Source of the DNA: an uncultured Bacteroidota bacterium
Lineage (GTDB): Bacteria > Bacteroidota > Bacteroidia > Flavobacteriales > Flavobacteriaceae
Direction: 5' to 3'
Assembly (NCBI GenBank): GCA_902510415.1
Contig: CABXBH010000010.1
Span: 1 to 36,857 of the forward strand
Length of the DNA stretch: 36,857 nt
Each line of letters opens with the position of its first letter. Positions within the stretch are counted from its first letter, which is position 1. The position numbers and the translations under genes were made by a program. The notes under the pieces are model-generated. The model had not been told where the DNA came from, ran no database searches, and was given only the letters and a program-made list of their open reading frames with translations. Shown piece after piece: positions 35,558-36,857 of this stretch.

Positions 35558-36307
35558 TTGAAAACAATACTTATAACAGGAGCAACAAGCGGAATTGGAT
35601 TGGCGGCTGCTAAAAAGTTAGCAAACGATAAAAATCAACTTATTTTATGCGGTAGAAGACAACAAAAATTAGATGAAATTTCAAAAGAGCTTTCAGCAAT
35701 TACTAATGTATTATCACTTTGCTTCGATGTTTCAGATAAAAATGAAGTAAATAAAATTTTAGAAAATCTTACTGCTGAATTTAGTTCTATTGATATTCTT
35801 ATCAACAATGCTGGAAATGCACATGGACTCGATACAATTCAAGAGGGTTCACTTGATGATTGGGATAATATGATTGATAGTAATGTGAAAGGTTTGCTTT
35901 ATGTATCTCGTGTTATCATGCCAAAAATGATTGAAAAAGAAAGTGGACATATAATTAACATTGGCTCTCTTGCGGGTAGAGAAGTTTATGAAAAGGGTAA
36001 TATTTACTGCGCAACAAAACATGCAGTGAATGCTATTTCAAAAGCTATGAGAATTGACCTAAATAAAACAGGAATTAAAGTATCCGAAATTAATCCAGGA
36101 CTTGTAGAAACAGACTTTTCCAACGTTCGCTTTAAAGGAGATAATAATAGAGCTGAAAAGGTTTATCAAGGATATAAGGCGCTACAAGCAGATGATATTG
36201 CTGATATTATAGAATTCGTTATTAATAGACCAAGCCATGTCAATATTGCAGATATTTTAGTGCTTCCTCAAGCGCAAGCAACAAGCTCAATTATAGATAA
36301 GAAATAA
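35558..36307 (+). CDS. Short-chain dehydrogenase/reductase (classical SDR)
   Basis: A 249-residue NAD(P)-dependent oxidoreductase. The cofactor-binding TGATSGIG begins at residue 7. Other features are the Arg pair in CGRRQQKL that suggests NADPH, NNAGNAHG, INIGSLAG with the catalytic Ser, and the active-site YCATKHAV (Tyr and Lys). The C-terminal INPGLVETDF is typical. The overall pattern matches the YdfG-like group (3-hydroxy acid/serine dehydrogenases), but the substrate is not certain. The start is TTG at 35558: the frame has a TAA two codons upstream, there is no ATG before the Rossmann motif, and the reading KTILITGATSGIG fits the family. It is monocistronic between a divergent bat operon and the DUF6249-like gene with its own promoter. 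Confidence 0.93.
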   Translation: MKTILITGATSGIGLAAAKKLANDKNQLILCGRRQQKLDEISKELSAITNVLSLCFDVSDKNEVNKILENLTAEFSSIDILINNAGNAHGLDTIQEGSLDDWDNMIDSNVKGLLYVSRVIMPKMIEKESGHIINIGSLAGREVYEKGNIYCATKHAVNAISKAMRIDLNKTGIKVSEINPGLVETDFSNVRFKGDNNRAEKVYQGYKALQADDIADIIEFVINRPSHVNIADILVLPQAQATSSIIDKK

Positions 36308-36328
36308 AATTTGACAAAATTTTATAAT

Positions 36329-36372
36329 GTAACCTTTGCGTAACATAAAATAAAATGTTACGTTTGCGTTAC
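36329..36372 (+). promoter_or_regulatory. Promoter overlaid by four phased GTAAC/GTTAC half-sites
   Basis: TTTG at 36335-36338 and TACGTTTG (perfect TAnnTTTG) at 36359-36366 are exactly 20 nt apart, a consensus Bacteroidota promoter 28 nt before the ATG at 36394. Around it are GTAAC at 36329 and 36340 and GTTAC (the reverse complement) at 36357 and 36368. Each pair is 11 bp apart, one helical turn, and the two pairs face each other. The half-sites flank or overlap both promoter boxes, so a bound regulator would affect transcription directly. Confidence 0.65.
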
Positions 36373-36393
36373 ATTAATTAAAAAACTAAAATT

Positions 36394-36785: not shown

Positions 36786-36857
36786 TTGGGCAGAAATCAC
36801 AAAAATCTTTTAAATAATCTTCAAGAAATTCGAAAATCTGCAGGGTTAACTCAGCAA
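36786..36857 (+). CDS. Helix-turn-helix (XRE-type) regulator, N-terminal fragment
   Basis: The frame from TTG at 36786 to the end of the window reads 24 residues ending NLQEIRKSAGLTQQ. The pattern L-E-RK-AGLTQ-x is the first helix and turn of Cro/CI (XRE) HTH domains. No ATG is available: the frame is closed by a TGA at 36771-36773, and the only usual initiator after it is the TTG two nt after the DUF6249-like stop. The gene continues beyond the window. It is probably co-transcribed with the membrane protein and could bind the upstream repeats, but this is only a guess from position. Confidence 0.6.
   Translation, partial: MGRNHKNLLNNLQEIRKSAGLTQQ

Follow-up and report, generated by a model that had tools for sequence, protein, structure and literature searches.

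A pair of palindromic operators over the promoter of a DUF6249-XRE operon in marine bacteria, probably bound by its own CylR2-like regulator

Background

The closest described counterpart of the locus reported here is CylR1/CylR2, in which the repressor may receive its signal from a membrane protein predicted to have three helices (PMC3709268). CylR2 is placed among the 434-Cro-type folds (PMC8960796). More broadly, XRE dimers are reported to bind palindromes upstream of their own reading frames, nine of ten tested pairs having been bound, and the screen in that report covered 200 bp upstream of each XRE frame (PMC12565409). Because of this 200 bp limit it would miss operators that stand before a partner gene, as they do here, and a word search of its main text did not return 'GTAA'. 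In the literature available to us, to which most subscription papers did not belong, no GTAAC/TGTAAAG operator of CylR2-like proteins was described, and nothing was found on DUF6249, a word that occurs in a single paper there, on bean kinases.

Like the autoregulatory XRE proteins of PMC12565409, the present regulator probably has palindromic operators (O1 and O2) upstream of its own operon. Their half-sites stand about one turn apart within the promoter of that operon.

The array and its promoter

The array lies at the end of the window (that is, the whole stretch of 36,857 bases that was analysed), where the sequence reads ATGTAACCTTTGCGTAACAT, the spacer AAAATAAA and ATGTTACGTTTGCGTTACAT, in this order (Table 1). 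An exact sequence check confirmed the four half-sites and both promoter boxes of the preliminary description. O1 and O2 have 17 of their 20 letters in common and are 28 bp apart, and a 28-bp direct repeat with 79% identity holds the two palindromes. With up to three mismatches allowed, the four-block pattern gave a single match in the 36,857-base window and none in 100 shuffles. When the 86-bp intergenic DNA was put through 20,000 dinucleotide shuffles, a single 11-bp pair turned up in 10 of them and two pairs together in none.

An 11-bp phase had been claimed for all four half-sites; it holds within each pair, the steps across the array being 11, 17 and 11. The pairs had also been described as direct repeats with a period of one turn, of which the spacing of the half-sites in each operator stands. 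GTAAC and GTTAC are mutually reverse-complementary, so that five letters cannot separate 'direct' from 'inverted'. It is because of the flanks, ATGTNAC...GTNACAT around each pair, that each must be considered a pseudo-palindrome and not a direct repeat.

Bacteroidota sigma-A promoters are characterized by a -33 box, TTG or TTTG, and by its spacing to the -7 box. The promoter found here, TTTG-N20-TACGTTTG, fits this type (TAnnTTTG at -7 with an upstream TTTG); the promoter tool used scans for boxes of the E. coli type and did not list it. Since TAnnTTTG is placed at -12 to -5 in Flavobacterium psychrophilum (PMC9723704), transcription is predicted to start at approximately 36371, within O2. In the genome to which the window belongs (1.25 Mb, 68% complete), O1 and O2 are the only two perfect sites, and the operon of the XRE itself is the only target found.

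Table 1. Features of the array, the operon and its upstream neighbour in the window
Feature	Position	Strand	Basis and remarks
Operator O1, ATGTAACCTTTGCGTAACAT	36327..36346		Pseudo-palindrome centred on the -33 TTTG; half-sites GTAAC at 36329-36333 and 36340-36344; present in relatives too
Operator O2, ATGTTACGTTTGCGTTACAT	36355..36374		Pseudo-palindrome with the TTTG of the -7 box at its centre; half-sites GTTAC at 36357-36361 and 36368-36372; conserved
-33 box TTTG of a Bacteroidota-type promoter	36335..36338	+	Sequence; 20 bp before the -7 box
-7 box TACGTTTG, consensus TAnnTTTG	36359..36366	+	Sequence and published consensus (PMC9723704)
DUF6249 protein of 129 aa with three probable membrane helices	36394..36783	+	PF19762, E 2.6e-11
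Small XRE (CylR2-like) regulator gene, TTG start	36786..36857	+	24 codons, then contig end; probable binder of O1 and O2
SDR gene, upstream neighbour	35558-36307	+	Same strand as the operon

Genes of the operon

The AlphaFold model of the DUF6249 protein, which is of low confidence (mean pLDDT 67.8), has helices at residues 4-39, 65-87 and 89-111. The 24 residues of the regulator encoded in the window are identical to the first 24 of the protein of locus L018, which is complete at 72 aa, and the HTH_3 and CylR2 matches given here are those of the L018 protein; the Lys35 of the window regulator is likewise taken from its relatives. The L018 protein matched Pfam HTH_3 (PF01381) with an E-value of 1.7e-15, the models over cut-off being HTH_3, HTH_19, HTH_26 and HTH_31. 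Its phmmer matches in the PDB include CylR2 (1utx, E 1.2e-9; 2xiu, 4.1e-11) and a PbsX-family regulator (8e-12). A LytTR or response-regulator protein had been suggested as the binder of the repeats, but no such domain is encoded with the sites among the Pfam matches over cut-off, and the encoded HTH is of the XRE/HTH_3 type, close to CylR2. The downstream HTH protein, the other candidate of the preliminary description, has fared better: it is a CylR2-like XRE with relatives whose operators are palindromes of equal size, and it is the likely binder.

A role in anti-phage defence was considered and rejected, PADLOC giving no match for DUF6249 and merely generic HTH-type matches for the XRE. An origin from a phage or plasmid was likewise rejected, as searches of phage and plasmid collections gave no DUF6249 match. 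The array pattern was matched by two viral contigs, with an identical 41 bases inside a coding frame, and we judged these to be chance matches. Elsewhere in the window, on the minus strand between 29897 and 35422, is a cluster which, from the translations, we take to encode VWA-like proteins, a DUF58-like protein and a MoxR-like ATPase.

Conservation within the genus

DUF6249 was found in nine of the 21 genomes of the genus, and the XRE in the same nine, comprising eight strong matches and the window's genome (G000), where the gene is at the contig end. At no more than two mismatches per site, the operator pair is present in eight of the nine genomes with the operon and always precedes the first DUF6249 gene; in the ninth (G020) the contig stops before the upstream DNA. 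None of the 12 genomes without the operon has the pair, G019 having a single site, with two mismatches. What stands between array and regulator differs: G002 has two DUF6249 paralogues and the others have one or the other. In most genus loci (L010-L018) the cassette lies beyond the SDR gene. In L019 and L020 it is found in another gene context, presumably adjoining an SCO1-like gene as named from its sequence, and a variant array is retained. The two contexts suggest that the cassette moved together with its operator.

Arrays beyond the genus

Two loci in the Gammaproteobacteria, from SAR86 (L022) and Luminiphilus (L023), have DUF6249, XRE and the array, with a spacing of 27 and 26 bp, respectively. 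A pattern drawn from the outer parts of the array matched two of 395 Bacteroidota genomes, namely that of the window and G373, and one of 369 Gammaproteobacteria, the already known G452; the reversed pattern, used as a control, had no matches in the same genome sets. G373 was an unforeseen match, and its array is again upstream of DUF6249 and XRE. Since the pattern was drawn after the window, L019, L020, L022 and L023, independent support is limited to G373 and to the loci of the SAR86 order and of the G373 family.

The regulator search identified matches in 3 of 321 Gammaproteobacteria and 40 of 345 Bacteroidota at an E-value of 1e-15, and in 59 of 151 SAR86-order genomes and 27 of 92 genomes of G373's family at 1e-13, the Bacteroidota, Gammaproteobacteria and SAR86-order sets being samples of larger groups. 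From these, a set of 100 loci was assembled which comprised all Gammaproteobacteria, Bacteroidota and G373-family matches and the best 30 of the 69 SAR86-order rows. The next 24 SAR86-order matches were added later (one further row is L049) and the 14 weakest rows were left out. Three loci duplicate a place already represented (L048 = L023, L051 = L041, L092 = L022). The recognition helix reads RKS in 39 of the first 100 loci.

Among the close relatives outside the genus with lysine at residue 35 (K35 loci of Bacteroidota and SAR86/Luminiphilus), TGTAAC...GTTACA occurs upstream in 37 of 39. These are made up of 34 of 36 in the first 100 loci (25 within 1.1 kb, eight within 1.5 kb, and L110) and all three further K35 loci with DUF6249 among the next 24 matches. 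The two without it, L083 and L114, lack upstream DNA. DUF6249 itself is upstream in 38 of the 39, L114 having too little DNA. Left out of the close K35 loci were L049, L052, L053 and L156-L172, none of which has a DUF6249 match; the array is absent from L049, L052 and L172, all without DUF6249. On the tree L049 falls inside the close clade, on a long branch.

In total, 43 arrays were compared, with lengths of 45 bp (30 arrays), 46 bp (12) and 44 bp (one); 33 had been selected by the outer half-sites only, and 10 (the genus, L019 and L020) also by TTTGC and TTT[GA]C. No variation is seen in the outer half-sites or in the TTT and C within each operator, partly as a result of how the arrays were selected. 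The TTTG boxes end in A or G, and the inner half-sites drift and are weakly kept. The four-fold GTNAC array of the preliminary description is thus that of this genus, most of the 43 arrays having GTNAC at the outer half-sites only, but its central proposal, a regulator array over a consensus promoter, is borne out by the retention of the array upstream of DUF6249 orthologues. Loss of the half-sites beside retained promoter boxes had been named as evidence against a regulator; the opposite is observed, the half-sites outlasting the promoter boxes, with the outer ones persisting where TTTG reads TTTA. No sigma-70 promoter was established in the arrays of the Gammaproteobacteria.

In a SAR86 clade with K35 regulators but without DUF6249, 16 of 17 loci (L156-L171, not L172) have a GTAAC...GTTACA array of greater width. 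It always measures 59 bp end to end, compared with 43-45 elsewhere, and the 59-bp pattern had two matches on the reversed sequence among the 27 loci scanned. A conserved GAGTAG or GGGTAG precedes the right half-site in L156-L171, and the recognition helix is the same as in the close K35 loci. In other SAR86 loci (L093, L097, L100, L101, L103, L104, L107 and L148), extra genes for small predicted membrane proteins stand beside DUF6249, between array and XRE; their products have 80-115 aa, plus one of about 147-151 aa.

Regulator residue 35 and the half-site base

The more distant XRE relatives are encoded after other membrane-protein genes, and at many of these loci ATGTAAAG-N4-CTTTACAT is found near the promoter; six of these membrane-protein genes had no Pfam match over cut-off. 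When the 100 loci were scanned with the seventh base of the half-site left blank, 69 had a site upstream and three had one in the downstream control; 31 had no full-score site within 1 kb. A general palindrome scan gave a palindrome in part of the loci. Where Gln-type loci have two nearby full-score sites, these are 21, 28 or 41-46 bp apart.

The blank base was A in 116 of 130 half-sites at Gln35 loci. At Lys35 loci it was C in 42 of 68 and A in 26, the A being mostly in inner half-sites. Counted by locus with a site, C occurs in a half-site in 33/33 K35 and 4/46 Q35 loci (the latter being L057, L122, L126 and L131). Of eight columns compared, residue 35 had the most information per bit (0.76), column 9 being slightly higher in total. 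The recognition helices read RKS and RKT in the Lys group, and RQT, RQS and RQA in the Gln group. Four SAR86 loci (L151, L153, L154 and L155) have a DUF6249 operon with a Val35 regulator; none has TGTAAC...GTTACA, and all four have a pair of TGTNA-type sites that end in CTTTACA and lie 27 bp from each other. TGTAAAG-like sites accompany Gln35 or Val35 regulators. On the tree, which does not include the Val35 loci, the Lys/Gln split needs two changes of residue 35 and could have a single origin, so the correlation between residue and base rests on few events.

The window's genome contains a second membrane-protein/XRE operon, on contig C13 from 8523 (L004:1501-2635). It is of the Gln type, with the XRE helix RQTII, and is preceded by ATGTTAAGCTTGCTTTACAT and TTGTAAAGTAAACTTTACAT, a TGTAAAG-type pair around the -7 box TACTTTTG. 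The XRE proteins of L064, L066 and L072, with the helix RKTIS, are accompanied by another palindrome, TGATACC...GGTATCA or close to it, which on its sequence is a putative further operator class of the same XRE family.

Could the array be bound by some other DNA-binding protein, such as a CRP/FNR-like protein, a LytTR protein or a response regulator, the adjacent XRE being incidental? Several regulator families have half-sites of similar spacing, and the 24-aa fragment in the window is by itself insufficient proof of a regulator. We nevertheless consider this very unlikely, given that the half-site follows residue 35 of the XRE even among DUF6249 operons, that distant relatives of the XRE have operators of the same frame, and that array and XRE stay together over two phyla with the membrane genes and the context changing.

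Proposed mechanism

We propose, with a probability of roughly 0.87, that O1 and O2 are the autoregulatory operators of the CylR2-like XRE of their own operon, with DUF6249 as its likely partner. The sites, their overlap with the promoter, the co-occurrence of array and genes, the conservation of operator and regulator across phyla and the match between residue 35 and the half-site are observed; binding, repression and the role of the partner are inferred. One XRE dimer would occupy each 20-bp pseudo-palindrome, its two recognition helices lying in successive major grooves on the ATGTNAC half-sites, one turn apart. With the -33 box at the centre of O1, and the -7 box at that of O2, which also covers the predicted start, a dimer on either operator should exclude RNA polymerase, and the XRE would thereby repress its own operon. 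DUF6249, made from the same transcript, would likely relieve or set this repression upon a membrane or envelope signal; it probably signals to the XRE, by analogy with what has been proposed for CylR1/CylR2. Cooperative binding of the operator pair on one face of the DNA had been suggested, but 26-28 bp (about 2.5-2.7 turns) is not a whole number of turns, and dimer-dimer contact on one face is not implied.

Perhaps the XRE, once bound, acts chiefly as an activator, or as activator and repressor by turns, with O1 as an activator site. The two operators do have unequal symmetry, and XRE proteins can activate (PMC12565409); both operators, however, coincide with contacts of RNA polymerase, and O2 covers the -7 box and the predicted start, where binding would normally repress, and this alternative appears highly improbable. 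Least probable is that the inverted repeats act as RNA, through a hairpin in read-through from the upstream SDR gene serving as terminator or riboregulator: the 86-nt stretch folds at -19.8 kcal/mol (z -5.15) and pairing step 13 changes on both sides (T-A in 28 and G-C in eight of 43), but a T-T mismatch is conserved at stem steps 9 and 10 in 43/43, step 7 is C-C in 39/43, step 15 is unpaired in 33/43, the window scan found no terminator-like site, and a transcript of the operon itself, predicted to start at the array's end, would hardly include the array.

The conservation of operator and regulator across phyla while the membrane genes are exchanged may have a wider explanation, which we offer tentatively and at somewhat less than even odds. 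The operator pair and the Lys35-type XRE frame could form a transferable membrane-sensing module that has moved between Bacteroidota and Gammaproteobacteria. Different small membrane proteins would have been inserted into this fixed frame, and the operators would have remained intact through transfer, their internal promoter boxes being adapted to the RNA polymerase of each host. Lys versus Gln or Val at residue 35 of the recognition helix might then be a general switch of half-site specificity between C and A.

The arrangement is real, well conserved and common to unrelated marine bacteria, and it is a variation on a familiar switch. For the uncharacterised DUF6249 family in marine bacteria it names a specific regulator, operator and promoter as candidates. 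One regulator residue is matched to one operator base, a pairing that occurs naturally with Lys, Gln and Val and can be tested in vitro. In addition, operators before a partner gene escape scans that look just upstream of the regulator. The basic autoregulatory logic was already known; the match between regulator and operator and the conservation across phyla are of use and open to experiment.

Comparison with known systems

Cassettes of a membrane protein and a COG1476-type XRE in Bacteroidota are similar to the locus described here in having 20-bp palindromes upstream, in many loci in two copies. In the Gln35 cassettes these mostly read ATGTAAAG-N4-CTTTACAT, whereas here Lys accompanies ATGTAAC and the operators are 26-28 bp apart.

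The likeness to CylR1/CylR2 of Enterococcus faecalis lies in the homology of the XRE and, more tentatively, in the membrane protein encoded with it. CylR2 (1utx) is a 66-residue XRE that matches the present regulator at E 1.2e-9; it is produced together with a membrane protein that is predicted to have three helices, and it binds a promoter (PMC3709268). Here DUF6249, with three long helices in a low-confidence model (pLDDT 67.8), precedes the XRE. The CylR regulators are transcribed divergently from the lantibiotic operon which they control (PMC3709268), whereas the upstream neighbour here, an SDR gene, has the same orientation as the operon, and there is no divergent lantibiotic operon. We therefore class the system as one that works like CylR1/CylR2 and not as a member of it.
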